Assembly (NCBI GenBank): GCA_029204225.1
Contig: CM055095.1
Span: forward strand, 72,948,753 to 73,012,752
DNA: 64,000 bases
Origin: Diphasiastrum complanatum
Taxonomy: Eukaryota; Streptophyta; Lycopodiopsida; Lycopodiales; Lycopodiaceae
Direction: 5' to 3'
Part shown: positions 22,755-55,024 of the stretch, in pieces
Layout: each line of letters opens with the position of its first letter
Numbering within the stretch: position 1 is the first letter of the stretch
Notes under the pieces: generated by a model
The model's database searches: none
Told to the model about the DNA's origin: nothing
Seen by the model: the letters and a program-made list of their open reading frames with translations, nothing else
Position numbers and translations under genes: made by a program

Positions 22755-23563
22755 TATGAAAAATTGTCAAAAATCTATCTTGGCTATTTTATGATTTTAT
22801 GTTTGTGAGTACATTTCACATGTGTGGAGAATGTTCCCACATGTGTAAAATAGTTAGAAATAGTTTATAATTTTGACTTTAGGGGTATCATAAGGATCGC
22901 TAGTCAAGCATCTTGGTGTCACTAGTTGATAGGGCCAATTTTGGCTTTAGAGGTCAAATGGTCAAGTACACATGTTTTGTCATGATTAGGCCAAAATTCA
23001 ATTGTGATGTAACTTGAGATAGTTAGGTTTCTTACACATGTCAAGCTTAGGTTTGATGAGTGATCAAGTCATAGTGTTGGCTTTGGTCAAGGAGTCCAAT
23101 AGAAATTGAGAAATCTTCATGAAGGGTCCAATAGAATTGCAAGATAGATGCATCACTCATCCAATAGCATTAGAGAGGCTAGGATTAGGGGTCCAATAGG
23201 ATGCATGGAAGGATCTCCATAAGTTTTATATGTACTCCAATCATAATGTATGAGAGATCTATAAGTTTTTTGAGTCAATTTGGAGATTTGCCAATTTTGC
23301 TTGTATTGTCTTTGCCCAAAAGTGGTATTTTCTCTCTCTCTACCCGAGGAGAGGAGCTTGTTGGGACTTAGTTTATTTCATGAAGTCTTCCACACTTGTG
23401 AAACACCTTTTTGTAATGAATGAATGCAAGTAGAATGGTCTTTTTGCCTTAGATCTTGTCATTGATCTTGGATTTCAATCAATAGGTGATCTACAGTGCA
23501 TGAGCCAAGCTTAGGAGATCAATTTCACACATTAGGGCATTCCCACATGTGTGAATGTTCACA
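22755..23563 (+). repeat. 5' LTR of gag-only copia derivative
   Basis: Starts TATGAAAAATTGTC (the 3' copy starts TGTGAAAAATTGTC, so TG has become TA) and ends GTTCACA. Three CACATGTG words lie within it (about 22811, 22834, 23545). Paired with 26045-26764. Confidence 0.87.
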
Positions 23564-23576
23564 TGGTATCAGAGCC
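23564..23576 (+). promoter_or_regulatory. Primer-binding site, initiator Met-tRNA type
   Basis: TGGTATCAGAGCC directly after the LTR end ACA. Confidence 0.93.
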
Positions 23577-24319
23577 TACCTAAGTATTTGATGCATGTTT
23601 AATCCGAAGTTTCAAAAATTTCATGAAAATCAAGATCTAGAGAGTGTTGATTGCATCTCCCATGCTATCTCAAGGAAATTTTGATCAAGAGGGTTCATTA
23701 TCATAATTATTGAATAATTTCAGGTACTGTATGAAATTCAGTGCTCAGGCACATGTGAAGTACAGCCAAATTCATTTGAAAAGTTCTCTTCCAAGTTAGA
23801 TCCAAATTTGGTGCTAGATAGCTTGTTTGAAAGCTAGTTTTGTCTAGTTTTTGTAGCAATTTGTTTCAATCCATTTGGTGAGCCAGTCAAAAGTTATAAG
23901 CTTTTGAAGAGGGTTAGGTAGGGCACCTAGAACTGTGTGGACACATTTAGTTTGATCATATCTTGCTATGTTGACCTAAAAATTCAAGAAGAGGCTTGCC
24001 AATGTCATCTATTTGAGATCTAGTCATCATTTTGAGGTCATAGCCATTTTCTATCATACAATTGGCTTGTATTTGAGTGATTTTTGGATTCTTGGAGTAT
24101 TTCACATGTGCCAAAGATAGTTTGGCCCAAAATTTGCCTATACTTCATCAATTGATGAGAGGTTGATCTAGTTTGAGAGCGATTGTAGAGTTAGTGAGAT
24201 CCACCTCACATTTTGTTGCAAGATCTTGCATAGGAGTTGGTAGTACACCTTTCAAGGATCCTATAGTGAGAGAGAAGCAAAATTTATTGTCTCATTACAA
24301 GGTGTCTTCACTACTTTTG

Positions 24320-25297
24320 ATGGCATCCATGGGCTCCTACCTATTGGAATCTAGTGAAAGACTATCTACCTCCAACAACTCTATTTGGAAGGTTAGAATG
24401 AAGTCAAATTTGATACTCCAAGATGTGATGGACATTGTACTTGGGATTGAGGAGGAGCCTCAAGTCCTTCAAGAAGTACAAAAGTATAAGAAGAGAGCTA
24501 GGATGGCTCTCCATTATATCAAGATGAATGTCTCTAATGAGATTTTGAGAGAGATTGGTGCTTGTACTTTGGCCAAGGATCTCAAAGCAATCTATGAGGC
24601 CAAAAATACCTCTAGGCTCCTCACTCTTAGAAATAAAATCTTCCAAAGTTGTCAAAAGAGTGATGAGAGTGCCAGTAATTATGTTTTGAGAATGAAAGAC
24701 ATTCATAGGGAGCTTGCTTGTATTGGATATTCCATCAAACATAGTGAGCTAGTCCAAGTCATACTCAATGGCTTGAAGGATGAATATGAGAATCTTGTCC
24801 AATCCTATGCTATCAAGGAGGAGCTACCAACATTGGAGGCTTTGAAAGGAGTGCTAATAGCTAAAGAATCAAGGCATGAGAACAATCTATTAAGAATGGA
24901 CAAATTGTCACTCAATCATAATGGTGATGATAAAGTTTTATTTGCCAAGCACAAAGGGAGGAGCAAAAAGCAACACCAACACTTCTCTAAGGACAAAGCA
25001 AAAGATCGAGATGAAGAGGAGGAGGATTCCTCTCAAGATACTACTTCAAAGAAGAAGAAAACAGATGTTAAGTGCTTCTTTTGTGGCAAGAAAGGCCACT
25101 ATGCTACCAATTGCTTCAAGAAGAAGAATCAATTCAAGCAAGCCAACATCTCTCATGAGAAAGAAGACTTTATTGCAAGTGATGGAGAATGCTCACTTAT
25201 GACATCAAAATTCTCCTCTTCCACCTTCAAGATGGATGACTCTTGGTATATTGATAGTGGAGCATCTTCACATATGTGTAGCTCCAAGGTTTCCTAA
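24320..25297 (+). CDS. Copia gag with CCHC knuckle and protease start
   Basis: An open frame of about 325 codons from the ATG at 24320 (an upstream in-frame start exists, but this ATG matches the related gag at 32407 on the minus strand). The capsid region (about residues 10-190) has W-K-V-R, LTLRNKIFQS and the LVQVILNGLKDEYENLVQS helix. Then come a basic and acidic linker, the zinc knuckle CFFCGKKGHYATNC near 25070-25110, and DDSWYIDSGASSHMC, the aspartic protease active-site start, just before the stop. A gag that runs into protease and then stops is unlike a normal copia single ORF and marks the element as defective for pol. Confidence 0.88.
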   Translation: MASMGSYLLESSERLSTSNNSIWKVRMKSNLILQDVMDIVLGIEEEPQVLQEVQKYKKRARMALHYIKMNVSNEILREIGACTLAKDLKAIYEAKNTSRLLTLRNKIFQSCQKSDESASNYVLRMKDIHRELACIGYSIKHSELVQVILNGLKDEYENLVQSYAIKEELPTLEALKGVLIAKESRHENNLLRMDKLSLNHNGDDKVLFAKHKGRSKKQHQHFSKDKAKDRDEEEEDSSQDTTSKKKKTDVKCFFCGKKGHYATNCFKKKNQFKQANISHEKEDFIASDGECSLMTSKFSSSTFKMDDSWYIDSGASSHMCSSKVS

Positions 25298-26044
25298 TCT
25301 ATTATGCCTTATGAAGGAATCAAGAAGTCCATATATATTGCAAGTGATCAGGAGTGCAACATTGAAGGAGTAGGGACTATTCCCTTGAAGCTTGTATAAT
25401 CAAAAGTTCTATCTCTTCACAAGGTTCTTTTTGTTTCCAAGCTTACAAAGAATCTCTTAAGTGTTGGCCAATTACGTAATGGTGGTCTTGATGTCAATTT
25501 CCATATTGACAATTGAGTTTGATACTCATAGTTTGAAAAATCATGTTTTTACATGGTTTGAGGCATTTTGTAAATTTCTCTCCAAAGAGGACACTTACAT
25601 CCTTGAGAAAGTATTTAGCCTCAAAAAATCAAGATTCTATCTGATTTCAAGATTAGATCCATCATGGATAGTCAAGCTAGAATGCTTAATCTTGATAATC
25701 AACACTTTTGTTCATCTTATGATCTTGATCTCTGTGATCTTTATGAGGCATGAAAGCCTCTGATTTTCATCATGGTGCGGCCATCTTCATGCAAATGGTA
25801 CTTTTAAATCAAAGATCATCATCAACAAGCATGGAGGAAGCACATGGATATAGTGGCAAATTGGTGGAATGCTCTTCAAAGGTGTTAGCAAATGATTTTT
25901 ACCAAAGAAATCTTATCATGGATATGGTGAGGGTGCTGCTATGATGGATCCTTTTTCTGGTTTCTTACTTCATATGCATACCAAAGGATCCACTCAAAAA
26001 GGTTTCACAAACTCTTTGATCTTACCAAGCTGGTTTTTGAGGAG
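25298..26044 (+). pseudogene. Decayed protease/pre-integrase and unassigned tail
   Basis: Up to about 25500 the frames give the protease continuation (YIASD...NIEGVGTIPLKL and LLSVGQL). After that no pol motif is recognisable in any frame, down to the purine tract TTGAGGAG before the 3' LTR. Either pol was deleted and replaced, or it has decayed past recognition. Confidence 0.6.
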
Positions 26045-26764
26045 TGTGAAAAATTGTCAAAAATCTATCTTGGTTATTTTATGATTTTATGTTTGTGAGT
26101 ACATTTCACATGTGTGGAGCATGTTCCCACATGTGTAAAATAGTTAGAAATAGCTTGTAATTCTGATTTTAGGGGTATCATAAAGATTGCTAATCAAGCA
26201 TCTTGGTGTCACTAGGTGATAGGGCCAATTTTGGCTTTAGAGGTCAAATGGTCAAGTACACATGTTTTGTCATGATTAGGCCAAAATTTGACTATGATGT
26301 AACTTGAGATAGTTAGGTTTCTTACACATGTCAACTTTAGGTTTGATGAGTGATCAAGTCATAGTGTTGGCTTTGGTCAAGGGGTCCAATAGAAATCGAT
26401 AAATCTTCATGAAGGGTCCAATAGAATTGCAAGATGGATGCATCACTCATCCAATAGCATTAGAGAGGCTAGGATTAGGGGTCCAATAGGATGAAAGGAA
26501 GGATCTCCACGAGTTTTATATGTACTCCTCTTTCCAATCATAATGTATGAGAGATCTATGAGTTTTTTGAGTCAATTTGGAGATTTGCCAATTTTGCTTG
26601 TATTGCCTTCTCTCTCTAGATGAGCCCAAAAGTGGTATTTTTTCTCTCTACCCAAGGAGAGGAGCTTGTTGGGACTTAGTTTATTTCATAAAGTCTTCCA
26701 CACTTGTGAAACTCGTTTTGGTAATGAATGAATGCATGAAGAATGGTCTTTTTGCCTTAGATCT
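26045..26764 (+). repeat. 3' LTR of gag-only copia derivative, truncated
   Basis: Matches 22755-23450 closely, then stops at CCTTAGATCTTG, where the next LTR's TGAAGAAAC begins. About 95 bp of the LTR end are missing. Confidence 0.87.
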
Positions 26765-27605
26765 TGAAGAAACAAAAGGTTTCAATTGCCAAAGCTTTGC
26801 TAGCTTTCAACCCATGAAGAGAAAATGTTCGCGAACATTTCGCGACACATGACGGAAAATCATTCACGACAAAAAAACATTTGTGCTCCACAAAGGACCA
26901 ACAAGATCAGCCAAGTACCATGAAGTACAAACATTTGATCTAATATTGTGACATCAGCAGAAGTGCTTTAGGACGTGGCTAATCCGTCACTCTTATAATT
27001 CATGATTAATGATAGATGTTTAATCTGTCTAATTAGAAAAGTTATTCGACGTGACACGAAAAAGTTCGTGAACTATATACATTTTGCTTGATGCATAAAA
27101 TAGAAAGACAAAAATATATAGATTATATGTCCGCCTGTGAGCGAGACAATTTTGCAAGAGGATCAACAGATCCAAGAAGTCCGCTAGTAAGCAAGACGTT
27201 ATTCGTGGGAAAATTGTATTTCTCTCACACCAGTGCACTATGTGAATCTGTCACATAGTGCTTGAAAAACAAGAGGATCAATAGATAATATTGTAGCTGT
27301 TATGCACATATTAATCTTATTGTTGTATGATCTCGAATAAATTTTTTTCTGCTATTGTTCATGTATCTTGTGCACTTGTTTATTCAACTTCACACACTGG
27401 TTCAATCTTGTTGAATGTTGAATTAATCTATAATGTAGATCAACAGTGTCTGTCTACATTCTGGAGGATTGTAGGAATGATATAGCCAGTAGTGACCAAA
27501 AATCATATCTGAATTCCACACGAACTGATTTTCTTCGCGAATGTTTTTCACTTCGTGTTTCACTTCACTTCACTTTGTTTCGTTTTGTTTCTCGTTGTGC
27601 TACAC
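26765..27605 (+). mobile_element. Copia LTR (TGAAGAAAC family)
   Basis: Starts TGAAGAAACAAAAG, identical in its first part to the LTR at 40393-40910. It extends beyond that copy to about 27605, where a degenerate primer-site-like word (AATATCAGAG) follows, so it is probably a 5' LTR whose interior was cut off soon after. An 18-bp perfect palindrome lies at 26823-26840. Confidence 0.65.
26823..26840. repeat. 18-bp perfect palindrome in LTR
   Basis: AAATGTTCGCGAACATTT. Centre TTCGCGAA as in the unrelated LTR family at 20854. In the 40.4-kb copy the centre is TTCGTGAA, a single C to T change. Confidence 0.93.
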
Positions 27606-27768: not shown

Positions 27769-28130
27769 TTTCGCGAACGATGGGGCCCTCTGGACGCGGA
27801 GACGAATCAGCAAGAAGTGGAGATATCCATACATTTGTCCCATGATGAAATACGAGAAATTCATATAAATAAGGAGTGCAGCCTAGAAGATCTTCAGCAT
27901 ATGCTTGGATTGACTTTTGTTGATGTGCCAATAGATTTTGTCTTCACTCGTAATGGACAAAATGTGAGTCTCTAATTTCCATCAGATTCCTGAATTTTAA
28001 ATAGTAATGTTGAATAAATATAGGATTATTAATTCTGTGTCTGGTTTTGCAGATACGGAGACGAGCCGAAAAAGATCAGAAATGTGTTTCATTTTTACAA
28101 ACAGGGACATTAGGAGTCCAATGGGAATAA
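27769..28130 (+). pseudogene. Two-exon gene fragment, unknown
   Basis: Exon 27769-27963 (about 65 codons, includes VEISIHLSHDEIREI and FVDVPIDFVFTRNGQ), intron 27964-28052 with GTGAGT donor and TTTTGCAG acceptor, exon 28053-28130 (RRRAEKDQKCVSFLQTG, then stop). The intron is phase 0 and 89 bp. The start is not visible: a TAG precedes by one codon, so the 5' part is lost or spliced from elsewhere. The family is not recognised. It lies between a truncated LTR and the histone-like gene on the same strand and may be the remains of the neighbouring host gene. Confidence 0.45.
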
Positions 28131-28579
28131 AGGATTTAATCTAATGAAAAATAGAAAACACAATTAGTTGGTTGTGTTTTGACCCTATTCTATTATATTC
28201 GGTTATGTTTTAACTTTACTTTTGCGTTGTCACATTTTATATGCCTATTACTACATTTCTAGATGTCCAAGGTTGAAACTTACTACGGTTTAAATCATTT
28301 AGTGATATGCATTTTAATACTATTACTGGTTTTCTTCGAAGGTTTCCACTAACCGGCAATTAGGATTTTTACTCATGAGCCTAGACAAGAACATACTATA
28401 TTTGGAAGAGAGGCCAAAATTGTTATAGGAGCACTTACTAAAAATAGAACCCTTCACTACATAAGGGTGCTTGGGTCCTCATTTCTCCACTTCATCCCTT
28501 GAGTGTCAGAGTGTTAGTTTTTTTAGATTCTCTGTTTTTCATCTCTCGTGTTCTCTGATACGTTTTCAAAGGCTAACCA
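28131..28579 (+). other. Region upstream of the histone-like gene
   Basis: No coding features. A TATATTT word at about 28400 and pyrimidine-rich DNA from 28470 (CTCATTTCTCCACTTCATCCC) would fit a promoter and 5' leader for the gene starting at 28580/28592, but no element is strong enough to call separately. Confidence 0.35.
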
Positions 28580-28654
28580 ATGTCGGAGGAAATGGCAGGG
28601 ACAAAACAAACGGCTAGAGATCCCAGAGTGACTGCATTGCTCCATAGGGATGCA
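28580..28654 (+). pseudogene. Histone H3-type variant, N-terminal part, split by insertion
   Basis: Two in-frame ATGs, 28580 and 28592. From the second the protein begins MAGTKQTAR, which is the H3 N-terminus (A-R-T-K-Q-T-A-R) with R2 changed to G. K4, T6 and R8 are kept; K9 is replaced by D and the rest diverges. After 21 codons the frame is cut at ATGCA (28650-28654) by the LTR element, and the second ATGCA copy at 34228-34232 leads on in the same frame at 34233. Reading through the LTR instead gives 40 unrelated codons. H3 proteins package DNA in nucleosomes, and the first residues are the substrate of lysine-4 methylation and threonine phosphorylation. Confidence 0.75.
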
Positions 28655-29302
28655 TGTGAAAAAATACAGATCCTAAGTGGATCTAAACTCCAAGATCATT
28701 GGCTTGAATGCTTGCACTCCAAACTACATAAGCTAGGAATTGGCAACACATTCTATGCTACCTAGAATGCAAAGAACTTGATCAAAAAGCATTTATCACA
28801 AATGGAAACTTCCATAAACATCAAGTGCGGCCCAAAATAGCATTATACAGTCCATAATACATCAGCCTATCACTTTTGGAAAGCACCTAAGATCATACAC
28901 ACAAAGCTTGAACTCAATCACTACACAATGCCAACAATGGAAGGAGAACCCAATAGAAAAATCTCTCATTAAGCAAATGAATACAATGGATCTGCTCCAA
29001 CCTGTTTCTCCACGGCCTACCTGCTATATATAGCTGAGAGAGATGACTCTCTCTCCTCTCTCTAGACCCTCCTTACCTAAAATATGCCCTATATAGGTAA
29101 AATTGGCATATATGTCCAAAATACATGAAAATGGACTCATTTCGAAGGTCTTGAAGTTTGACACTTCTTCATACTGAAAAAATACACTTACTAAAAATAT
29201 CTAGACCTGTTTCACACGTGTGAAAAGTCAGATCCTAAACTATGTGCCATTTTTAGCAATTTTGGCCTAAAACTAGACAAGGAAATGTTGACAATTTTCA
29301 CA
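28655..29302 (-). repeat. 3' LTR of the young element
   Basis: Ends on the plus strand are TGTGAAAAAATAC and AATTTTCACA, so the termini are inverted copies. TATA box (CTATATATAG) at 29024-29033. The 16-bp palindrome-like TTTCACACGTGTGAAA lies at about 29211-29226. It differs from the other LTR only near position 9 (A versus T). Confidence 0.95.
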
Positions 29303-29315
29303 CTCCCTCTTCAAC

Positions 29316-30053
29316 TTAACTTGCTAGTTTTACAACACTACTTTGTTCCAACTTAAGAATGATCTCCATCATCAGAATAGATCTCTTCTCAAGGATCCTA
29401 ATATGTACAAAATAGGACACAACATAATTGATATAGATAATAGTGTCCATATAGGATGCTTCACTATTTCTTACATCAATTTTACATAGAATCATAAAAA
29501 TGGTACATGTAAAAGAACATAGAATCTCAATTAATGAATTCCTCCATGTATCCATCTCTGGTTTCTCTGTAAAATAGCAGCAAACAAGTTGTAAATGAAA
29601 GTGATCAACAAGTGTTTGCATGCCTCCTCCACATTTCACTATACATATAGTGAATGCAACATGTATCTCCATGAATGAACTTCCATCACCACCTTGCCTT
29701 TGTAGATCTTCAATCCATGAAAGCCTTTGAGTGAATGAATGCCAAAAAGATGTGTTCCCTACTCCATTTGAATGACCAAAACCTGAACTTGAAATACTTG
29801 AAGTACCTCCACAAGATTTGCACACAACGCTTGATCCTACAATGTCAACAAGTTGCCAATTTGCCAACACTAGAATACTAGATCTTGAACTTTGTTCAAA
29901 AGAAAACATATTGACCACTTCAATACCTTTCAAGATCTGAATGAATTCATGTACTTGATCATACAAACCAGCAATGATAACTATTCCATCTCCAAGATCC
30001 AAAGGATGCAAAACTATGGAACTAGTTTTATTGAAATTTGACAATTTCAACAC
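29316..30053 (-). CDS. Unknown ORF of the non-autonomous element (245 codons)
   Basis: Starts seven bases inside the end of the long ORF to its right, so the two overlap as in a coupled arrangement or a single protein split by one frameshift. Not a known retroelement enzyme. The last 90 residues contain CKIDVRNSEA, DTIIYIN and EKRSI, which recur in nearly the same order in the insert at 57.4-58.5 kb (CKIDVRNSEA, DTILYIN, ERRSI). Recurrence in two distinct elements shows the module is part of a family rather than random. Cys-rich and hydrophobic stretches alternate; no membrane topology is clear. Confidence 0.6.
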   Translation of the reverse strand: MLKLSNFNKTSSIVLHPLDLGDGIVIIAGLYDQVHEFIQILKGIEVVNMFSFEQSSRSSILVLANWQLVDIVGSSVVCKSCGGTSSISSSGFGHSNGVGNTSFWHSFTQRLSWIEDLQRQGGDGSSFMEIHVAFTICIVKCGGGMQTLVDHFHLQLVCCYFTEKPEMDTWRNSLIEILCSFTCTIFMILCKIDVRNSEASYMDTIIYINYVVSYFVHIRILEKRSILMMEIILKLEQSSVVKLAS

Positions 30054-32407
30054 ATTGACATAAAATGTTCATACATGAGATTAGGCAAGTGAGGTAGAGT
30101 AAGAAGACACTTCCTTGCAGCTCCAAAGACCTTACTTGAACCTTCAAGAACCTGTAAAAACAGATCCAAAATGCCTTGACCATTTGTCTCTTCTTTGATG
30201 CTTTTCACTAGCTTCGAATTGCCACTTGTCTCTTGGTGTTGATGAAGCAATCCAAGATCAACCTCTTGATCTTCCAATAAGACATCAAAGATCTTGCATA
30301 TGTGAACATCTTCAGATCTGAAACTCTGAAGATACTCCCTCTCAAACACATGATTAAGATCCCACAAGATCTCATCAATGCTCAAATTTGACCCTTCACT
30401 ATAGTTAGTGAAAACAATGCCACCATCATAAACCAAAAGATAGATTCCAACATTTCCATTTAACATGAAGTAGAGTAGGTGAAGATGAGTATCAAACCTA
30501 ATCAAAACAGCCCTCTTGAGTTCATAACAAACCTCAATAAGCTCACCAATGATATCTCCCTTGCCTTGAAGAAGTTGCCACTTGAGTTGCTCCATGTAGT
30601 CTTCTTCAACCAACCTTTTGCCATCTTGACCATGAATGAACAATCCACCACAATCATAGAATGCTTTGAGTTGATGAAGAGATGTTAGATCCATGCTTTG
30701 GATCTTCCCAAGAACCACTCTTCCATTGCCCTTTCCTTCACAAGACTCCCTCTTAATGCTAGCACCACAAAAGTTAGAAACCTCCCTCTTGATAGTTGCA
30801 CCATAAGAAGTAGAAGACTCTTGAATATTAGAAGCCAAGAAAAGAATCCTTAGTACCTTCAACATAAGAGTGATTGAAGTACTCTCTCTTTTCAAACATG
30901 AACTTCTACTCAATGATTTAGGTAATGAGTCATATGATAATGATTCTTCCTCACTATCGTTCATAAAAACATCATTCAAAGTACATCCTACTTTGAACAC
31001 TTCACATACTTCTCTTCCTTTTGACTTGTGATCTCCCTCACCAAGTCTCATGATAGAAACCTTTGATCTACTCTTTTTATGAAGAAATGTGACACCACTT
31101 GTTGCACAAATGACTTTATCACAAAAAGATGTAAAAGAACCATTTCCTTCAAGCATGCTCAAAGCACCATCATCTTTTCCCACATGATTACATACATCAA
31201 TATGAAAAGAATTAGAAGAACAACCATCTTCTTGCAAAGAATGACACTTAGCATCTCCATCTTTTTCCATATGAACAAACAAGTCATTAGCAACAATCAC
31301 TTCCAAAGAAGAATCTTCATCAACTCCATTGATGAAGTTAGCTCCTTCCTTACCTTTTCCATTTTTGCACTTGCCATCTAGCACCATTGAAGAACCAACA
31401 AGCCTTGGAAGTCCATGAGTAGAAGAGTACAAACATGATGCTAATTTAGCTCCACATGACTCCATATGACTAGTAGGTAACACTAGTGCATCTTCAAGAT
31501 CCAATGGATCCAAAAAATTGACCATAGATTCACCAAAGCTTGCCAAGTTAGCACAACAATTATCATCTCCAAGAAGTACATTAGATCTCAACCTAGATCT
31601 AGCATTTTGTTTCTTATGGCATTCATTTGCAAAATGTCCTTTTATCCCACAATAAAAGCACTTGAACTTTGACTTATTGTTCTTAGTAGAAGAGGAAGAG
31701 GAAGAGTGATCATCATGATCAAAGTTACCACCTTTGGACCATTTCCCTTTGCCTTTACCTTTGCCCTTGAATTTGCCTTTTGTGAAGAAAGCCTCTTCAC
31801 CTCCACCTTGCAAGGATGCACCATCAAGCTTTGATTGCAACCTATGTTCTTCAGCCAATAAGATTTCTTGCAAGTCAACCACACTTGGCAAGACTCTTTG
31901 AATGGCAAAACTTTGCACAAGGTTAGCATGTTCATTTAGCAAACCATTCAACATAACTTGGACTATTTCACCATCTTTTATGTTCTCATCAATGCATGCT
32001 AAATCATCACTTAGGGACTTAACTCTCAAGATAAATGCATGAGCACTTTCACCCTCTCTTTGCCTACTAGAAAATATTTGTCTCCTTAGGGTCAATACCC
32101 TAGATGTGGACTTTGATTCAAAGAGCTTCTTTAAGGCATTCCATGCCTCACTTGCACTTTGACACTTTCCAACTTCCTTGAGAAGTTCATTTGTAACATT
32201 CATTTTAATGATATGAAGAGCCCTTTTGGCCTTCTTATCAAACCTTTGTTGCTCTTGAAGTGTGAGAGGTCTCTCTTCAATTTCTGCAACTATGTCCATG
32301 AGTTCATTCAACTCAAGTAAGGACTCCATCCTCACTTTCCAAGTAGAGTAGTTTGATGAACTCAACCTTTCACTAGACTCTAGCATGATCCCACCATTGG
32401 AAGCCAT
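30047..32407 (-). CDS. Gag fused to unknown module (786 codons)
   Basis: Residues 1-200 are copia gag (WKVRMES, LTLRRQIFSSRQ, EIVQVMLNGLLNEH). A Gly/Lys repeat and Asp/Ser-rich linker leads to the CCHC knuckle CFYCGIKGHFANEC at about 248-262. The remaining 500 residues lack the protease DSGA, integrase, RT YVDD and RNase H motifs. They are Ser/Asp/Cys-rich at first, then globular, ending with LVKSIKEETNGQGILDLFLQ and GAARKC, which recur at 57.6 kb (LVKSIKGEVIGKSVMDLFLQ and GAARKC). The frame is fully open. Gag would let the RNA enter particles built with a partner's enzymes; the tail has no known role. Confidence 0.85.
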   Translation of the reverse strand: MASNGGIMLESSERLSSSNYSTWKVRMESLLELNELMDIVAEIEERPLTLQEQQRFDKKAKRALHIIKMNVTNELLKEVGKCQSASEAWNALKKLFESKSTSRVLTLRRQIFSSRQREGESAHAFILRVKSLSDDLACIDENIKDGEIVQVMLNGLLNEHANLVQSFAIQRVLPSVVDLQEILLAEEHRLQSKLDGASLQGGGEEAFFTKGKFKGKGKGKGKWSKGGNFDHDDHSSSSSSTKNNKSKFKCFYCGIKGHFANECHKKQNARSRLRSNVLLGDDNCCANLASFGESMVNFLDPLDLEDALVLPTSHMESCGAKLASCLYSSTHGLPRLVGSSMVLDGKCKNGKGKEGANFINGVDEDSSLEVIVANDLFVHMEKDGDAKCHSLQEDGCSSNSFHIDVCNHVGKDDGALSMLEGNGSFTSFCDKVICATSGVTFLHKKSRSKVSIMRLGEGDHKSKGREVCEVFKVGCTLNDVFMNDSEEESLSYDSLPKSLSRSSCLKRESTSITLMLKVLRILFLASNIQESSTSYGATIKREVSNFCGASIKRESCEGKGNGRVVLGKIQSMDLTSLHQLKAFYDCGGLFIHGQDGKRLVEEDYMEQLKWQLLQGKGDIIGELIEVCYELKRAVLIRFDTHLHLLYFMLNGNVGIYLLVYDGGIVFTNYSEGSNLSIDEILWDLNHVFEREYLQSFRSEDVHICKIFDVLLEDQEVDLGLLHQHQETSGNSKLVKSIKEETNGQGILDLFLQVLEGSSKVFGAARKCLLTLPHLPNLMYEHFMSMC

Positions 32408-33567
32408 GATTCTAATGTTTCTTCAACTTTTAGGTTCTGTCCTAAAGCACTTAGCACTCACTTTTCTCTCAACAAATGATAGATAAAGAGATCTATGAAG
32501 ATTTAGGACCCTAAAACACTTCTATCTTGAACCTAGATGGTTTCCAAGCATAGAAAGGAAGATTGAAACACATGCAACACTTTGCACACACTAAGAATGG
32601 ATTACAAAATCAAACCAACCTGAACACACTCTTGCTTAAGCTCTCAAACTTTCCAGCAAGTGACCAAATCAAGTTATGGTGTGAAGAGTTACTTGCATTC
32701 TTAGAAAATACCCAAAACTAGGATGCCAAGATTACCTAGTAATGAACAAACTTGATCAACATATGATCAACACACTAAGATATTGATTCAACCTATAAAA
32801 CCACATGTAAACCACACTTCTAAAAGTTTATAAACTCCAGCAAGTGATAAATACAAGATTTAGAGGTGAATGAATGAGCACACTTAGTGAATCACAAGAC
32901 TAGCTTCACTATCTTGTCAAATCTTGGTGTTTAGATGTAGATCTAAGATCACTTCACATGAGAATGTTCCTCAACCTGTTAAGAACCTGAAAACACACTT
33001 GCATAATGGTTAACACCTTCCAGCAAATGCTCCAATCAAATTACATAAGGAGAGTTACTTACATGCTCAACAAAGTACACCAAAATTTATGCCAAAATTG
33101 ATGACAATCTTTACAATATGCTCTTCACAATGGAGCTTACAATATGTTCACCCAAAAAAGGGGATCTTTCATCCAAATGGGAGCTTTGCTCAGCCTTTAG
33201 GAGAATTACAACTCACTCAAAAGAGCATTTGTCATCCACTTAAGGAGAAGTTTCATCCACTTAAGGAGAGTGTTCATCCAAGAATGGAGATTGTCAACAA
33301 TAGGATTGAAAAGAACATTGTTAGTATTGAATATGCACAAGCCTCACAATCACAAATGATTAGGTGTTATGATCTGATCCAAAATAGTTTCTTTTCAGCC
33401 TCTGATCTTCAATAGACCTGAAATATGCTTTTGATCCACAAGTTCAACTCACAAAACAAAGGTTAGTAAGATTTGATCAACAAAGCAATGCAAAATCATG
33501 CTAGAACTTGATCAAACATCCAAATATCACCAAAAATGGAATACTTACTGTAAATAGAAGCCAACCA
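32408..33567 (-). other. Leader of the young element
   Basis: About 1.16 kb between primer site and gag start, noncoding on the minus strand. Near 33225-33285 a phrase like CATCCACTTAAGGAGA-GT repeats three times. A long leader like this would hold the packaging signal. Confidence 0.5.
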
Positions 33568-33579
33568 GCTCTGATACCA
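33568..33579 (-). promoter_or_regulatory. Primer-binding site, initiator Met-tRNA type
   Basis: TGGTATCAGAGC on the minus strand directly after the 5' LTR end. Confidence 0.93.
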
Positions 33580-34227
33580 TGTGAAAAATTACAGATCCTA
33601 AGTGGATCTAAACTCCAAGATCATTGGCTTGAATGCTTGCACTCCAAACTACATAAGCTAGGAATTGGCAACACATTCTATGCTACCTAGAATGCAAAGA
33701 ACTTGATCAAAAAGCATTTATCACAAATGGAAACTTCCATAAACATCAAGTGCGGCCCAAAATAGCATTATACAGTCCATAATACATCAGCCTATCACTT
33801 TTGGAAAGCACCTAAGATCATACACACAAAGCTTGAACTCAATCACTACACAATGCCAACAATGGAAGGAGAACCCAATAGAAAAATCTCTCATTAAGCA
33901 AATGAATACAATGGATCTGCTCCAACCTGTTTCTCCACGGCCTACCTGCTATATATAGCTGAGAGAGATGACTCTCTCTCCTCTCTCTAGACCCTCCTTA
34001 CCTAAAATATGCCCTATATAGGTAAAATTGGCATATATGTCCAAAATACATGAAAATGGACTCATTTCGAAGGTCTTGAAGTTTGACACTTCTTCATACT
34101 GAAAAAATACACTTACTAAAAATATCTAGACCTGTTTCACACGTGTGAAAAGTCAGATCCTAAACTATGTGCCATTTTTAGCAATTTTGGCCTAAAACTA
34201 GACAAGGAAATGTTGACAATTTTCACA
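33580..34227 (-). repeat. 5' LTR of the young element
   Basis: 648 bp, identical to 28655-29302 except one base by eye. TATA box CTATATATAG at 33949-33958. Confidence 0.95.
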
Positions 34228-34232
34228 ATGCA

Positions 34233-35468
34233 CTAGCCATCCTCGATGAGAGAGAGAGATGGGAGAGTAGAAGCAAGAGTAGGAGTCGCAGCCCAATAGC
34301 ATCTCAGGAATATCCGGCCACTCAGCGTGAAGCTGAAGAGGACATGGCCCATACAGCAGCTGCACAGGAGGACCAGACTGAGTAGTAGCAGCAAGAAGAC
34401 CAGCAGCAGCAGGAGGACCAGCAGCAGCAGCAGCCACCACGACAAAAAAGCCCTTTCCCGATGGCAACTGAGTGGGAGGAAACAATGAAGTTCCTAAATG
34501 AGGAGCTTGTGGCATCGGGTGAGTTGTCGGTTCTGAATGATTCTTTCTTTGATCCATTTCCACCATCAATGGGCATGGACATAGCAAATTTAGGCAAATC
34601 GGGGGACACCACACCCACCGTGTCACCTCCAAGTCACGGCTTGGTGATGGGTCCGATGATGTCGTTGCTGGTGGGTGGTTCTGATGAGGGCACCCCGATG
34701 TCGCACACAACAAGTATGAAGCAGAAGGCGACCCATAGATGGTCAGAGAGAGGAGCACACGAGCGAAAGAGAAAGAATCCTCGCAAGGCAGGCTCTACAT
34801 CAAAGCGATGGAACCCTGCAGCTCAGCAGCCATCACCACTGCCCACACCGCCAACATCGCCTCCACCGCCTCCACCGCCTCCACCTCCACCTCGACCACC
34901 TCCACTACCACCACCTCCACCACCACCTCCACCACCACCACTTCCACCACCTCCAAGTTCTGCAGCAGCTGGCCCAAGTAGGACCGTAGAGCGTGGTAGG
35001 GGTAGGTCGGCCCCTCGTGCAGCACCATGGGCTGGAAAGGAGCTCCGCAAGATGTAGCCACCACCTCCTTGACCTCGTAGGAAGTGCATGATCGCAAAGT
35101 AGCTCCAGGATATACGGAGCTATCAGAAGTCCGTAGAATTTCTTATCCCTAGGGTCCCTTTTGTGAGGCTTGTAAAAAAAATAGTCGATGAATTTTTCTT
35201 GGGGAACAGAGTTACGGCAGATGCTGTGTCCGCAATACAAGAGTCTGTGGAAATGTACCTAACGCAGCTTTTTGAGGACTCATTTTTGTGTGCAGTGCAC
35301 GGGAAGAGAGTCACAATATTCCCAAAGAATCTCCACCTAGCTAGAAGGCTAAGGAGAGAGCGCAATTTAAAATATCATGTACATGATTTTATTTATAATA
35401 TACTGAAGATTTGGTGTCAAGTATCTTGCAGAAATTCAGGTTATGTGAATGCAAATTGTTGTGATTGA
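34233..35468 (+). pseudogene. Histone H3-type variant: long tail and complete histone fold
   Basis: One frame runs the whole way. Tail: Arg/Ser-rich RWESRSKSRSRSP (34257-34295), a Glu/Gln-rich part with poly-Gln (34389-34433), a mixed segment (34461-34800), poly-Pro of about 45 residues (34845-34960), then basic RGRGRSAPR. Histone fold 35103-35366: alpha-N with IRSYQKS and FLIP; PFVRLVKKI; loop 1 of canonical H3 length with R conserved; AVSAIQES; YLTQLFEDSFLCAVHGKRVT; FPKNLHLARRLRRER. H3 has LFEDTNLCAIHAKRVT at the same place. In-frame stops: TAG 34383, TAG 34386, TAG 35055, TGA 35070, TAG 35100. A 33-residue extension follows the fold. LIP in place of LIR recalls plant centromeric H3, but loop 1 lacks the CENH3 insertion. 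No intron interrupts the fold. Confidence 0.85.
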
Positions 35469-35610
35469 GTTTAATATCTGATTTTAGTACTGTTTATGTG
35501 AATGTAGTCATTTGAAAATTTTAGTACCATCTATGTGAATGCAGTGATTTAAAATATTTAGTACTATGAGAATGGTAGTTTCTTTAACCATGTTGTAGCT
35601 AAGATAGGTT
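35469..35610. other. Region downstream of the histone-like gene
   Basis: A phrase TTTTAGTACT(G/A)T...ATGTGAATG(C/T)AGT repeats at about 35482, 35519 and 35556. No gene. Confidence 0.4.
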
Positions 35611-35780
35611 TCCATGCCATGGCATGAAAATCATGCCAGGGCGCAACCAGGGGCCATTTGACCAGGTCAAAAGTCCCCTGGTCGCACCTTGGCATGATCT
35701 TCATGCCAGGGTGTGACCAGGGCCCGTTTGACTAGGTCAAACGGCCCCTGGTCGCGCCCTGACTTGATTTTCATGCCACA
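35611..35780. repeat. Tandem pair of long palindromes
   Basis: Two adjacent units of about 74 bp, each an imperfect inverted repeat with arms of about 32 bp: CATGCCAGGGCGCAACCAGG...TTTGACC, then its inverse complement ...CTGGTCGC...CATG. Both strands would fold into strong GC-rich hairpins in an AT-rich background. Possibly a foldback/MITE-type element or a small-RNA-producing hairpin. Confidence 0.85.
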
Positions 35781-35908
35781 GAAAAAAGAAAAGAAATCTT
35801 TATCAGAGAAAAAAAAAATTTAAATTCTAAATTCAATGAATAAGCACATCATATAATTACAATAGAAAATTAGGAGAGTCCTCAAGAAAAAAACGACAAA
35901 ATTTTTAT

Positions 35909-37370
35909 TCACATTTGATCCATTTTTTTCATAGAGGACTTCAGCTTCTCTGATGACAGTACTGGTTTTAACATTTCTAATGTTAATTTAGAAGCATCAC
36001 TCTCATCCTCATAAGGGCCAATTAAACTCGAGAGAATGAGCCGGGTCTTGAATCCAAGGCAAAAATCATTCAAAACGGCTTTTCAGAGGACACAATAAGC
36101 CTTTGGCGCTGACGGTGACAACTCCACCTCACCAATGTGCTTGGAGAGTGCTTTGCATTTAAGAAGCTCCGTTGGTTTATCTGGGTTGTACTTGTTGCTG
36201 AAGCAGAAAATAAAGTTGTTGGGCAAGTTTCCAATGTAGTGGGCCATAGACCTGTCCAGAGTTCATGCTTCAACTTTCTCCCGAGTGCCACCCATTCGCA
36301 TTGCAAATGCATCAAGCTCCACTGCATCCTGCATTTGGTTCAAATTATTGCAAAATGAGTATAACAAAGACAAACAAACATAAAAAAAAAATACACAAGT
36401 TGAATTGTTGGGTCAGACTTGTCTCGGTCCCTTCATCAATGTCTTCGGTTTGCGCAAGGTCAATTCCTTTGCCTTTGTACTTCACGTCAGCAGTTTTTCC
36501 TTCGAGTACTTCAAATGGCCTCATTTGAACTGGTGGTGTTTGAAGCATTTTCAATTGGCAAAGCACTCTTGCCAGTGCTTGCTTGGTGGTGTCCGTGTCA
36601 TGCCCGATCAGCTTCTCATACGTGTCGTCGGGCTGGGTGTGGTCGAAAGTGGAACTGCCATTCTGCAAATTTACCAATGCTGCCAGCATCTCATCTTCTC
36701 GCAAGCCGATAATATGTTGCAAGTCATGCATGAACACATACTTCTGTCCGTCAATGATGATTGGAGCAAGGCCACGGATTCGAAGCACGACATCATCAGA
36801 CTCATCTATATCTTCTAGCTCCGTTGATGTGGATGCACCTGTTGCCTCTTGCGCAGTCAAGACTGCTTTGTGCTCCGCAAATAAATCTTCCTCTTCACCC
36901 GGGTCGTGCATCTCGTTCACCTGCTCACTAGGATTGTGTTTGTTGTTGGCCACAGTCGCTAGAAACTCATTAAGCGAAAAAATAACAGTAATCTCACCGG
37001 AAAGAAACTTTTTTCCTACACTTTCAAGATCAAAAGTTTTCAGCTGATCCTTGGTCAGCTCCAAGTAATGATCGTTACCCAAGTGACTAATAAATCTGTT
37101 GAGATGAGCGATAAAGGGTCTATCTCCTTTCCATATATAACTAAGCAAGTTATATGGAATCCACATGATAGTTGAGCCAGAAATTTGTATGGCATAAGGC
37201 TTCAAAGTGTCATCTATATACTCACTCACATACGTGAATACATCCGTATTAGCTCGTAGAGTGGCAAGCGTGCCTATTCTACCAGTAAACATTAAATAAA
37301 TACGATCTAACTGATCTAAAAACTGTGTGGGGGCTAGCTGATTGGCCAACTCTATTTTAGAGGATGACAT
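35909..37370 (-). pseudogene. Unknown two-exon gene downstream of the transposase-like gene
   Basis: Exon 1 from the ATG at 37370 to 36395 (about 325 codons), intron 36322-36394 (73 bp, GTATTT donor, GCAG acceptor, phase 1), exon 2 36321-35909. Exon 1 has IQISGSTIMWIPYNLLSYIW, an acidic linker with GEEED, and VLRIRGLAPIIIDGQKYVFM followed by LREDEMLAAL. Exon 2 reads MAHYIGNLPNNF and KALSKHIGEVELSP, but is broken by TGA at 36265 and 36085; both could be CGA to TGA changes. I do not recognise the family. Same strand and 265 bp downstream of the transposase-like gene, so it may be that element's second gene. Confidence 0.55.
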
Positions 37371-37492
37371 TGTTATTCAACTAAGAACACTAGTTGACCA
37401 ACAAACTAGTAGTCTAATTGAACAAGACAAGCTAAATTACGAGGAAAGAGATTTCAACAGAGCAAGAAGTGACAACAAAATGAAAACCCCCA

Positions 37493-37505
37493 CTCTTATA
37501 TAGAG
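37493..37505 (-). promoter_or_regulatory. TATA box of the 37370 gene
   Basis: On the minus strand CTATATAAGAG lies about 125 bp before the ATG at 37370, a normal plant distance for a TATA box plus leader. No other strong TATA word lies in the gap from 37371 to 37635. Confidence 0.6.
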
Positions 37506-37635
37506 GGACGTGTTTTAAAAAATAGATATTATTATAAAACAAAATAAAACAATTTCTATTTATAGCAACAATCCAATTCGCCAGTAATATTTATCACAAA
37601 GGAATATTCGAATTACAATTCAACATAAATTGTTT

Positions 37636-39110
37636 CTATTCCATCTCATCAGTTTCCGTAGCTTCTCTAGCGCTGTTTTCCAAAACATTGGATGTTGGTG
37701 TCCTTGGCATCCATCTCTTTCCAACTCGGACTCTAGACATCCTCCATTCTTGATGCCTTGTTCTAGCATTAGAGGACTGCCATGCTGTCTTTCTGACTGA
37801 ATTTGAATTGGAGATAATTGAACTCAACTCTTCAGTTCTTGTGTTTTGAAAGTGTCCTCGACCGAAAACTCCTCTGTAAAACCATTGGAATATCTCAACC
37901 AATGCATTGCTAAGACCCTTTCCTCCGCCATGCCGTGAATTTTTGAAATATGCAGCCTTTGCCCTGTAATGACTCTTTTCCATGCCTTGCATATTCCAAA
38001 TAGCTAATGATCCGTAGGTTTTCATAAACCAAGGTCCATGAGCATAGAAGATGGGCTGTTCATAGAAAATTTGTATTAGTTTAAATCTTTACAAATACAT
38101 AAATACGAAAGTAAAAAATATGAGACACACATACCATATAGTGAGTTATGTGTGTTTCTCCCCATGCATCGATCATCAATTCAGTAAATGTTTTGACTTC
38201 TCTTGCGTATCTATCCAAATCTTCATCTCTCACAATCTTTTTGTTGATAGTTTGTGACAAGGCATCAAATGCTTGCCAAACCTTAGCACGTGTACTTGCC
38301 ATGCGAGGATCTGAGCCAATATTTGTTGTGCATTGACATATTTTCTTCCAGTGCTCCCATTCAACACTGCTTTCACGTGCAGTATGATTTGACAATAGGT
38401 GTCTCGCTTTCGCACCACCCATTGAAACTTTTGTTGGAACATCTTGCGTTTTTCCACTCATCTCAACGTCTTTGGTAAGACTCACATGGCCCCCATGCAA
38501 TCCCATATCGGATAAAATTATCTCTAGATTTCTAATGCTAACATATGCTCTTGATTTGGGCTGCATGTTCCATGCGTAACAACAATGCAAAAATAATAAT
38601 TTGTCCAATATTCGCAATTCACCATGCATTGTGCAAAAAAGGACTCTTCCAAGAGGAATGTTCAACACAGGACTCCAAGCTTTGTCTAGATTGTGCCTAT
38701 TTGGTGCAAGACGTTGGTTGCAATTCAAAATACTTTTGTTCCGCCCAGATTCAAACATACAATATATACAAAAATTCTTTGCATTTGCACCGAGACCACA
38801 ACCGTACATGCATTTCAAAGTCTTCAAATCAGTAGCTAGGTGCCATTCTACAGCAAAGCTTTCTCCTTCAACATTGAGCAATTTGCCTTCGTGAGACTCC
38901 TTAGGCCCCTTCAAATATAGCTATCCACCATATGTGATTTTTGGATTGCACGCTAAATTCTTTACAATAACTTCCGCCAAACTGTTGCAATTCACGATTC
39001 ATCAAGGTGATTATGACACGTTCAAGTTTATGCCCTTTTACGATTTCTACTTCGTCCAACTTAATAACAAATATAACTTTACCTCCGCAATTTGTAAAAC
39101 AGAAATTTCA
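37636..39110 (-). pseudogene. Transposase-like gene with CxxC motif and one intron
   Basis: Exons 38922-38135 and 38055-37636 join through a 79-bp phase-0 intron (38056-38134; GTATGT donor, AACAG acceptor) to give HYM-PIFYAHGPWFMK. Coding continues upstream to about 39060 (FVIKLDEVEIVKG, MNRELQQFGGSYCKEFSV, NHIWWIA) after a one-base frameshift near 38915. Order of motifs: GCGLGANAKNFCIYC, a 'NRHNLDKAW.PVLNIPLGRV' segment, CTMHGELRILDKLL, then GMEKSHYRAKAAYFKN near the C-terminus. This pattern (G..A...C.YC, then 'plLNIpl..v..d.lH..lRI.D.Ll') resembles repeat-encoded proteins common in invertebrate genomes, probably transposases. Terminal inverted repeats were not found. Confidence 0.5.
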
Positions 39111-39249
39111 TTACGAAAACATATTAGTTGAAGAAAAGCATACAATTGAAAACCAAAATCCACAATAAATGTTCTTACCATTTGTTCTAACTTTGTAATG
39201 TCGGATCATCATCGCTTGGATCTTTTCCAGATCTAAGAATATATTATTG

Positions 39250-40372
39250 CCTTGATGATAATGAAAACATGTCAGAGGTCCTTTCTTCTTATTAGTTATT
39301 GTAAAAGAATCCTCAATATGCTGAAAGCCTTGAAATCCTTAGGATTCAAGCCACTAATAGCTGATTCCAATGTTTATGTAAAAATTACAGATGGAAAGAT
39401 CATCATTGTAGCTATATATGTGGATGACACTCTGATACTCTACAAGAGTGAGGAGCTTATTGATGAGGTGAAGTATGATATCTCAAAACATTTCGAGATT
39501 GCAGACCTGGGAGAAGCTAGATGTTATCTTGGCTTACAGATTGACAGGGACTATGAGGGAGGTAAATTGTACCTTCATCAGTCCAGATATACCCATAAGA
39601 TCTTAGAAGATTTCGGGATGCTAAATTGCAAAGGAGCGAATACTCCAATGCTTGCAGGAACAGTCTTGACGAATGAAGATTGTCCAAAGACTGAAGAAGA
39701 AAGAGAATTGATGCAATAGACACCATACAGAAAGCTGATTGGATCTCTGATGTATCTTGCAGATAACACATGTCTTGGCATTGCTTATGTCGTGTTCAGG
39801 ATGAGACAATTCTGTACGACTCATTGGAAGATTGCAAAACGAATTTTGCAATATCTTCAATTAACGAAAGATTTTGGATTGTGTTATTCTCGTGCTGCAG
39901 GGTTCCAAATGCTTTCCTACAGTGATGCTAGCTGGTCATCTCTCAAGGATGACTACAAAAGTGTCTCATGAGGATGCACCATTGTGTCAAGAGCAGCAAT
40001 TCTCTTGGTCAGCAAGAAGCAGACCATTGTGGCTCAGTCATCCTACGAAGCAGATTACGTAGCAGCAGCAAAGATGGCCAGTAAAATCATTTGGCTCAAA
40101 CAGTTCCTTGATGAACTGGGCAAAACAAGAAATGAATCTCTAGTTTTGCAGATGGACAACACATCTGCAATACATCTAACAAAAGACCCTGTGTTTCACT
40201 CAAGGATGAAACACATTGCAATCAAGTACCACTTGATAAGGTATCTGATCGGGAAGAAGATGTTGCAGACTACTTTTATTGGAATAAAGGAGATGGCTGC
40301 TGACATTTTCACAAAGGTCTTAGACAAAGGTCTGTTCGAGAAATAGAGGAGCAGTCTTGGAGTCATCTAGCT
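39250..40372 (+). pseudogene. Copia RT end and RNase H
   Basis: RT starts mid-domain (FKPLIADSNVYVK). The catalytic AIYVDDTLILY is intact at about 39410-39440, then FEIADLGEARCYLGL and HQSRYTHKIL. RNase H carries SYSDASWSS, VAQSSYEADYVAA, MDNTSAIHL and MKHIAIKYHLIR, ending DIFTKVLDKGLFEK. Stops: TAG at 39717 (likely from CAG) and TGA at 39969, with a frame change near it. Left edge abuts the transposase-like gene region, so the copia 5' end was lost on joining. Confidence 0.9.
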
Positions 40373-40392
40373 ATCATGCTTTGAGAGAGAGC

Positions 40393-40910
40393 TGAAGAAA
40401 CAAAAGCTTTCAATTGCCAAAGCTTTGCTAGCTTTCAACCCACGAAGAGAAAATGTTCGTGAACATTTTGTGACACACGACACGAAATTATTCACGATAG
40501 AAAATCATTCATGCTCCACAAAGGACCAACAAGATCAACCAAGTACCATGAAGTACAAATATTTGATCTGATATTGTGACATCAGCAGAAGTGCTTTAGG
40601 ATGTGGCTAATCTGCCACTCTTGTAATCCATGATTAGTTACAGATGTTTAATCTGTCTAATTAGAAAAGTTACTCGACGCGACACGAAAAAGCTAGCAAA
40701 CTATATACATTCTGCTTGATGCATAAAACAGAAAGATGCAAATATATAGATTACATGTCCGTCTGTGAGCGAGACAATTTTGCAAGAGGATCAGTAGATC
40801 CAAGAAGTTTGCTAGTAAGCGAGACATTATTCGTGGGAGAATTGTATTTCTCTCACGCCAATGCACTGTGTGGATCTGTCACACAGTCTTGAAAAACAAG
40901 AGGATCAAAG
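40393..40910 (+). repeat. Copia 3' LTR (TGAAGAAAC family), truncated
   Basis: Starts after GAGAGAGC with TGAAGAAACAAAAGC. Matches 26765-27280 at high identity and stops at GAGGATCAA, where a different LTR begins. The palindrome of the other copy is here AAAATGTTCGTGAACATTTT, with one mismatch. Confidence 0.85.
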
Positions 40911-48315: not shown

Positions 48316-49016
48316 TGTGCCTTTGGATAAGGACATGCAAGTGACTATACCTTGGTCAGAGGTATGGAGTCACGTGACTCTTGGATAAGAGATACCCTTA
48401 AGATTAAGGGTAGTTATCTTAGATTAAGGTACTAATGTCCTTGGTTAAGGACAGGTAGGTGTCTATGCCTTGGATGGAGGTATGGAACCTAGAGAGGTGT
48501 TAGAAAGTCATTCGATGACTATTTTTCTAAACCTTGGGCCTCAACCTTGAACCGTATCACTTTAATGATCTAGGACCAAAGTATACATGCACATCTTGGG
48601 CATTGGGACCTAGTAGGAGGACGCACTTCCAATGGGTCCAACGAGTTTCCAACTCCCACAAGAAAGACATTCAAAGAGTCATAGGTTATGGAAGGAGTCT
48701 CTTGACATTCCATAAGCCTATGGAGGTTCTTTAACTCCCCTAGGCTCTCTCTCTCTCATTGGATGGGCATGGAACTCCATGGAGGGGTCCATGGGCCATC
48801 TATATGAGGTAGTAGGGCGCCCATTGGAGGGAACATAGATCTCTCTTGCTTATGCTCTAGTGTTGCTAGTGTGTAGAGTACTTTCTTGTGTGTAGTATGC
48901 TTAGGATTTGGATCTTGCTTATGGTATGAGACATAAGTAGGGTTTGGATCTTGAGTATGATATAGTCTTTTGTGGTATGCTTGTGGTTTGTTTATGGTTA
49001 GCAAGGGGGTGCTAGA
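48316..49016 (+). repeat. LTR of the TGTTACATACC family, plus copy, second part
   Basis: Continues 42904-43024 after the copia insertion. The part from about 48499 occurs again at 53287. The right edge is uncertain: the minus copy at 40911 stops matching near here, but the sequence in both direct copies runs on without a visible LTR end or primer site. Confidence 0.7.
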
Positions 49017-49419
49017 TAGGTCTTGCTTGGAGTCTGGATCTAGCTATGGTTGGGTGGTGAATATTTGAGGCCAGCTTGTTATCTATTTTTGTGTTTAAGA
49101 GTAGGGACACATGTGGAAGAGAGATCCTTGGAAGCTTGCAGATCCTTACTTGCAGGTGGAGACATCCTAGCTTGGAGTTGGGGAGCATCTTGGAGCTTGC
49201 AGGTTGCTTGGAAGACATTTGGAGGCTCTACCTTGGATTTGGCGGACTTCCTCACCTCTACTTGTAAAATTGAGTGTGATAAATGTGAAGGCTTTCTGAT
49301 CTTTAATCTTCCATGCCTTTGCTTGATCACCATCTTCTGGTTTCTGGTCAGAACCTTCTACTACATCCCAAAGATCTCTATCTATCAACATCATCTGGAG
49401 TTTTAACTTCCAGATATAG

Positions 49420-49970: not shown

Positions 49971-50117
49971 GACTTGAAAAAGAGTAATCTTTTTTGATGT
50001 AACCATCATAATTACAAATAAAATAATAATTCAAGAGAACAAATGATTTTTGAAACTCGAAATCCCATTGAAATACAAAATAATTTAAATTATATTTGTA
50101 CATTTTCTTTAAGTACA

Positions 50118-54775: not shown

Positions 54776-55024
54776 TTTGGTGTCTTTTTAATGGTCCTAT
54801 TTTTAGGCCAAAATCATGGATTTTTTTAATAAATCTCTAAATTTTGTTTTTGAAAAAAGCCAAAAAATACATATTCTAAATAACGAACTACAAGTTTTTT
54901 GTAGCAAACTTTATAAAACCATCATAATTACAAATAAAATAATAATTCCAGAGAACAAATGATTTTTGAAACTCGAAATCCCATTGAAATACAAAATAAT
55001 TTAAATTATATTTACACATTTTTT

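Follow-up and report, generated by a model that had tools for sequence, protein, structure and literature searches.

The genome of Diphasiastrum complanatum (Lycopodiaceae) contains a family of DNA transposons, about 9 kb long and bounded by terminal inverted repeats (TIRs), that carry a gene for a divergent histone H3 beside a transposase-like gene (TP) and at least two other conserved genes. We regard this assignment of the H3 gene as very probable. The gene was met in a stretch of 64,000 nt of contig CM055095.1 (assembly GCA_029204225.1, positions 72,948,753 to 73,012,752, forward strand), hereafter the window, where a retrotransposon has cut one copy in two. All window coordinates below are positions in this whole stretch. 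The element histones, as read in 21 copies, keep K4 of H3 and lack K9. The best explanation of the data as a whole, to which we give a probability of about one half, is that the transposon encodes an H3 that would not carry K9 methylation and would thereby oppose silencing.

The split gene and its intact relative

The original prediction, made from the letters of the window, described an H3-type gene with a canonical N-terminus, a long tail and a full histone fold, interrupted by a retrotransposon. Its landmarks were confirmed: MAGTKQTAR starts at 28592, and the two copies of ATGCA (28650-28654 and 34228-34232) flank an element of 5,573 bp with long terminal repeats (LTRs). When the flanks of this element are joined, a single frame runs from 28592 to a TGA at 35466 with zero frameshifts. 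The fold begins at residue 312 of this frame, which agrees with the predicted tail of about 311 residues; the prolines of the tail, put at about 45, number 59. The claim that the frame continues to a full fold held in so far as no frameshift occurs and the fold matches PF00125 (E 3e-26), but the prediction had not mentioned five in-frame stops ahead of the fold (34383, 34386, 35055, 35070, and 35100).

A single transition separates each of the five stops from a codon for Gln or Arg. The stop that stands directly after the fold in the 12 relatives printed is gone in the window copy. Of 2,175 differences counted from six relatives to the window, 931 are C>T or G>A, a lean toward these two changes. 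An alternative genetic code was considered for the stops and rejected, because intact copies have open frames and because of this same bias. The five stops and the retrotransposon insertion bear out the suggestion that the window copy is a pseudogene.

The intact paralogue sought in the same genome was found. Copy L009 has an uninterrupted frame of 416 aa that begins MSEEMARTKQTARD and reads MSEEMARTKQTARDPRV...RRERN, followed by a stop. Since the N-terminus, tail, and fold are joined in this unbroken frame, the single-gene reading is settled and a chance arrangement is excluded; together with the LTR element and its ATGCA duplication in the window, this establishes one gene cut by a retrotransposon.

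Copies of the element in the genome

The genome searched was the window's own (1.74 Gb, 5,176 contigs). At least 153 matches to PF00125 were obtained, a lower bound, with 150 of 6,325 first-look candidates scored. The top 13 hits score about 164 bits, and the eight of them that were read are normal H3 genes of 136 aa, all canonical with K9. This host H3 carries A31, Y41, S87, and L90, which passages of PMC4357034 give as the signature of intronless H3 in non-flowering plants. The other 137 matches score 83-110 bits and are spread over many contigs; every one of the 26 fetched from among them (20 and a further 6) is a divergent H3.

Twenty regions of 9.9 kb were fetched and fall into two families, A (14 loci) and B (6 loci); among these loci, no DNA match between A and B reaches 250 bases. 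The family A loci match window positions 27778-39326 at 87-96% DNA identity and extend past both edges; 13 of the matches begin at 27778 and six reach 39326. As the relatives continue beyond both positions, the window copy is a truncated member of the family. A 38-base tag from the family A fold occurs 190 times in the genome with up to three mismatches (control, 0), and many copies of the family contain stops.

Complementary TIRs bound dispersed copies in both families. Read through from one end to the other, two family A elements measure 8.8 and 9.0 kb; their inverted ends start CATTAGGGC(C/T)CTTTTTGGACTC, with termini CATTAG...CTAATG. Family B ends in CATTAGAGGAGTTCTC. The 32-base terminus of family A has 653 exact copies in the genome, and a terminus of family B, with as many as three mismatches allowed, has 2,417; both controls gave 0. 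At G000:C1:67871296-67872435, 1.1 kb separates two exact inverted family A termini, possibly a short non-autonomous derivative.

The genes keep a common arrangement. A listed hit to the open reading frame (ORF) that we call ORF2 lies within 5 kb of 51 of the 99 copied places of the fold tag, in all 51 cases downstream and convergent. In the PF00125 list, an ORF2 hit accompanies 17 of 137 matches, where the shifted control averaged 0.08 and never exceeded 1. A transposase-like hit stands no more than 8 kb from 26 of the 137; in 24 cases it is downstream and convergent, in two it is not. Of 117 ORF2 hits, 65 have a same-strand transposase-like hit 1.1-1.8 kb upstream. The gene order differs between families A and B.

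It is therefore hardly credible that we are dealing with a host H3 variant family merely situated near transposons. The H3 fold itself speaks for that possibility, and nothing further does; the fixed spacing and orientation to ORF2 and TP, repeated dozens of times across many contigs, and the location inside TIRs already contradict it. The new H3 variant lineage proposed earlier stands as a new, divergent H3 lineage, but not as an ordinary host variant, because the gene sits in a multi-copy TIR transposon.

Two further lineages were read as folds only: C (L055, L057), in which L055 has a transposase-like hit of 75% identity at 0.6 kb, and D (L056, L058). L056 and L058 were also noted together with L061 as a further divergent histone lineage (FMEEI.KYQKST...CAQHAKRVTLM); an acidic stretch upstream of L056, in another frame, resembles the family A tail by eye.

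The N-terminus keeps K4 and lacks K9

The host H3 start MARTKQTARK served as the reference for aligning the N-termini; family A is represented by 15 copies, the 14 loci and the window. K4 is kept in 15/15 A and 6/6 B copies, and K4-Q5 and R8 in all 15 A copies. Position 9 is D in 13 A and five B copies and G in two A copies and one B copy; K was found in none of the 21. The N-termini of family B read MDRRKQTRRD in three of six copies, the remaining three differing by one or two residues. ARTKQTARKS with both K4 and K9, the mark of H3 in the broad sense, is thus not what these genes encode.

In the window, an extra in-frame ATG at 28580, 12 bases 5' of the ATG at 28592, yields MSEEMAGTKQTAR. 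The second ATG, with which MARTKQTAR starts in L009, differs from the first in its surroundings: only the second is set between a purine at -3 and a G at +4 (nine loci), the rule for start-codon context. To judge from this context, leaky scanning to the second ATG could give the H3-like end.

Conservation and selection

For the histone in 21 copies of family A, the ratio of nonsynonymous to synonymous substitution rates (dN/dS) is 0.44, compared with 0.88 and 0.77 in the wrong frames; in six copies of family B it is 0.16. By raw proportions the family B value is 0.20, with 0.81 and 1.56 in the wrong frames. Between histone lineages the proportion of differences is 0.73-1.0 at silent sites (pS), which are saturated, and 0.20-0.39 at replacement sites (pN). 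Saturation at silent sites between lineages with similar proteins indicates that the histone is under selection. For ORF2 dN/dS is 0.47 (eight copies) and for another gene, ORF4, 0.36 (six copies, one of them from family B), both values standing without a frame control. One A-B pair of TP has pN 0.38 and pS 0.77.

The other genes are comparable between the families at the protein level. TP of family A matches family B elements at 24-64% by piece, and both share the motifs KLDE.EIVKG, EWHLA.DLKTLKCMY, C.YCM, CT.H.E, GGAKAR, and QGMEKSH, with conserved Asp, Asp, and Glu motifs. Named from motifs only, TP looks like a DDE transposase; its single-sequence structure model (predicted local distance difference test score, pLDDT, 39) is too poor to use. 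Between A and B the second exon of ORF2 is 34-38% identical and ORF4 29-34%, and shuffled controls gave E 0.28 or worse. By these protein comparisons A and B share TP, ORF4, H3, and at least the second exon of ORF2. A tblastn match (E about 0.01) raised the possibility of another, minus-strand histone fold in family B; it was rejected, since the three minus-strand frames there contain no Pfam histone.

These data bear on the possibility that the gene is a passenger, i.e., a host H3 or CENH3 (centromeric H3) gene captured once by the transposon and amplified without function. Such a capture is known in fungi: as described in PMC6710886, hAT elements of Pseudocercospora have captured H3, make 8-bp duplications and are inactivated by repeat-induced point mutation, and 94% of the copies match the third exon only. 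The stops in many copies of our family and the absence of constraint on close TP copies would agree with a passenger. Yet the saturation of silent sites with conservation of the protein across lineages is unexpected for a neutral gene, the constraint on the histone is frame-specific in both A and B, and the two diverged families have genes in common, quite apart from the third-exon remnants that make up most of the fungal copies. We consider a passenger improbable. The comparisons show instead that selection has retained the histone across at least two deeply diverged element families.

The histone fold and its relation to CENH3

The fold of the window copy aligns with canonical H3 without gaps over 87 residues and has the canonical loop-1 length, as had been stated; it is 55% identical to plant H3.1. 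Loop 1, which is longer in CENH3 than in H3, equals that of H3 in family A and is one residue longer in family B. The family A tail has about 300 residues or more, and the family B histone has a short N-tail (MDRRKQTRRDFF in L024) and a C-terminal extension of about 200 residues. LIP, as in plant CENH3, occurs in most A and B rows. Four residues for pairing with H4, namely H113, R116, T118, and R83, are conserved throughout the 31 fold rows, with the one exception of T118 in L033.

In the fold tree, one branch has the 16 transposon rows, without CENH3, all on the same side (86/72, 83% of bootstraps). The transposon rows together with plant CENH3 form one side of another branch (92/92), a placement that is not decisive. 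The grouping of family B with plant CENH3 alone was not rejected (approximately unbiased test, p-AU 0.25), so the tree is compatible with an H3 or a CENH3 source and with a single or double capture. The earlier suggestion of a germline or centromere role was not borne out: family A has a canonical loop 1, though the tree places the transposon histones on the same side as plant CENH3.

A related alternative is that the histone serves in targeting: the fold would tether the complex that carries out transposition, either to nucleosomes or to centromere-like chromatin, and the loss of K9 would be incidental. The longer loop 1 of family B, the LIP motif, the branch shared with plant CENH3, and the long extra domains at opposite ends of the A and B proteins all fit such a role. 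The gapless family A fold and the indecisive CENH3 placement do not, and targeting would not explain why K4-Q5 is retained or why position 9 is D or G. We hold it to be unlikely, albeit the strongest of the competing explanations.

Proposed function of the element H3

H3K9 methylation is a main way in which plants hold transposons silent. In the explanation that we prefer, the element would express its own H3 together with its transposase. This H3 would pair with host H4 and enter chromatin, preferentially at copies of the element. With Asp, or Gly in a few copies, in place of K9, the resulting nucleosomes would be unable to carry H3K9 methylation, K4 being kept. The long tail of family A and the long C-terminal extension of family B would recruit or target. 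The general form of this proposal, that a group of plant DNA transposons encode a conserved, working H3 of their own that imitates the K4 end of H3, dress their copies in nucleosomes without H3K9 methylation, and so escape silencing, is a tentative one, for which we would claim somewhat less than even odds.

Several results weigh against the preferred explanation. Among close family A copies of TP the substitution ratio is 1.23 over the 36 pairs of nine copies, against 0.47 and 0.50 in the wrong frames, and thus gives no sign of constraint on recent copies; TP has no Pfam or PDB match, and the large exon of ORF2 has no match in family B. A target-site duplication is absent at all eight end pairs (seven of family A, one of them the pair 1.1 kb apart, and one of family B), which is unusual for a cut-and-paste element; 2-bp agreement at one pair and 3-bp agreement at another are what chance allows. 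ARTKQTAR is exact in just 6/15 A copies. The 21 N-termini represent two independent lineages with close relatives within each, lineages C and D contributing folds only, and the change at position 9 could be incidental. Finally, the histone copies were sampled from best-scoring or best-matching lists, which favors intact genes.

Other genes of the element and its position in the window

The features of the window copy are collected in Table 1. The large exon of ORF2 has no Pfam hit. The hairpin between the H3 gene and ORF2 folds (35610-35790) at -129 kcal/mol with z -15; it is possibly a source of small RNA or a terminator.

Table 1. Features of the truncated element and of the retroelements in and beside it
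Feature	Positions	Strand	Remarks
Family A TIR DNA transposon fragment with H3 gene	27778..39326	+	Truncated at both ends, split by copia 28655-34227
ORF4, 3' part	27778..27966	+	Frame and end set by eye; homologous to intact ORF in L022
H3-like gene, 5' end, MSEE-MAGTKQTARDPRVTALLHRDA	28580..28654	+	Two in-frame ATGs: 28580, 28592
Target-site duplication of copia element, left copy	28650..28654	+	ATGCA
Interrupting copia-type LTR retrotransposon	28655..34227	-	5,573 bp; LTRs 28655-29302, 33580-34227; TG...CA ends
Target-site duplication of copia element, right copy	34228..34232	+	ATGCA
Remaining H3-like tail (SR repeats, Gln tract, Pro tract)	34233..35102	+	Five in-frame stops
Complete H3-type histone fold	35103..35366	+	PF00125 E 3e-26; gapless against H3 in PDB
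Near-perfect hairpin, about 160 nt, between convergent H3 and ORF2	35617..35778	.	Inverted match in 10/14 family A loci
ORF2, large exon, 343 aa	36348..37376	-	118 matches including window copy, others 75-90% identical
TP, C-terminal exon	37639..38088	-	QGMEKSH motif; 51-55% identity to B over 51 aa
TP, middle exon	38084..38920	-	Motifs of EWHLA.DLKTLK, CIYC, CTMHGE type; 139 matches including window copy
Copia pol fragment and LTR bordering the transposon fragment	39327..40908	+	RVT_2 E 4e-20

The gene content also bears on whether the element could be virus-like rather than a classical transposon, integrating into the genome and using the histone for packaging or dressing its DNA. Viruses do encode histones (passages of PMC9145170), the element has several genes in some 9 kb and no visible target duplication, and one of its ORFs weakly matches the Tenuivirus nucleocapsid family PF05733, at E 0.07, below the curated cut-off. 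Against this stand the TIRs and the transposase-like gene with its Asp, Asp, and Glu motifs; among the ORFs searched, none matched a capsid or polymerase family above its cut-off, and none of the three proteins tried (3/3) has a relative in viral_contigs. A virus-like element is accordingly very improbable.

Retroelements and further features of the window

The interrupting element is of copia type by its LTRs, 5-bp duplication, and copia gag. Its LTRs have one mismatch between them. A minus-strand ORF of 791 aa (30050-32422) matches gag PF14223 at E 7e-23, and no pol family was found in the two ORFs scanned, of 791 and 250 aa; the element possibly belongs to a gag-only family. Its piece 29340-29698 is present again at 58080-58438.

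The copia fragment that borders the transposon has a second LTR copy, a direct repeat of 90% identity, at 26765-27281. We considered and rejected transduction of H3 by these surrounding copia pieces (26765-27281 and 39327-40908), as the relatives show them to be mere neighbors of a truncated DNA transposon. A further LTR element at 22757-26766, with repeats 92% alike and a gag-like ORF (24167-25294) by eye, directly adjoins the old copia LTR piece at 26765.

Elsewhere in this plant window, the ORF 52015-52590 encodes a prokaryote-type N6/N4 DNA methylase domain (PF01555, E 1.6e-10). It begins right after a segment of about 3.5 kb that is duplicated nearby (48506-52010 and 53287-56928, 91-92% identity). 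At 13552-14097 there is a degenerate array of the 7-bp unit TAGCCCT, telomere-like by eye.

Comparison with known systems

The nearest parallel is the fungal hAT elements with H3. Besides Pseudocercospora, Pyrenophora has tens of H3 copies, many potentially active, according to PMC6710886. There, as here, a TIR DNA transposon of 9-10 kb has multiplied an H3 coding sequence to tens or hundreds. The fungal hAT captured a housekeeping H3 of the host, whereas the family described here has a divergent H3 (55% in the fold) with intact frames and constraint; unlike the fungal hAT, our element shares genes across two families. There was no hAT match among the ORFs searched and no 8-bp duplication at the eight end pairs.

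A transposon-encoded anti-silencing protein is known, namely VANC of the Arabidopsis VANDAL elements, which counters host chromatin silencing of its own copies (PMC10398659). The element H3 is proposed to act likewise. Viral histones with extended tails have also been described, among them one lone H3 with a tail 35 residues longer than in H3.2. These too are encoded by selfish DNA, but in viral genomes, whereas our family is a TIR element in a plant chromosome; the passages of PMC9145170 on viral histones mention no transposon-encoded histone. The Spy transposons (PMC4482050) move by cut-and-paste without target-site duplication, prefer AAATTT, and have one ORF. Our element resembles them in the missing duplication and differs in having several genes and no target motif seen by eye at its insertions.

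The likeness to plant CENH3 lies in the LIP motif, the divergence from H3, and the long variable tail. Unlike the plant CENH3 sequences compared, which have MARTKH, family A has a canonical loop 1 and K4-Q5 as in H3, and the gene is mobile and multi-copy.

A plant transposon with a conserved histone gene was not found among the top matches listed in the open-access literature, and the word histone is absent from the text of a review of plant gene capture (PMC13317346); the element itself may already go by a different name. The top papers listed likewise included no transposon that has a histone among its conserved genes; the parts have precedents in the captured H3 of fungi, viral histones, and VANC.

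If the proposal is true, a transposon H3 without K9 would be a direct countermeasure at the level of chromatin, and histones would be added to the weapons of the arms race between hosts and transposons. The hundreds of diverged H3 genes are a natural source showing which parts of H3 tolerate change. Such elements may also provide a possible route for the origin or loss of H3 and CENH3 variants of the host.

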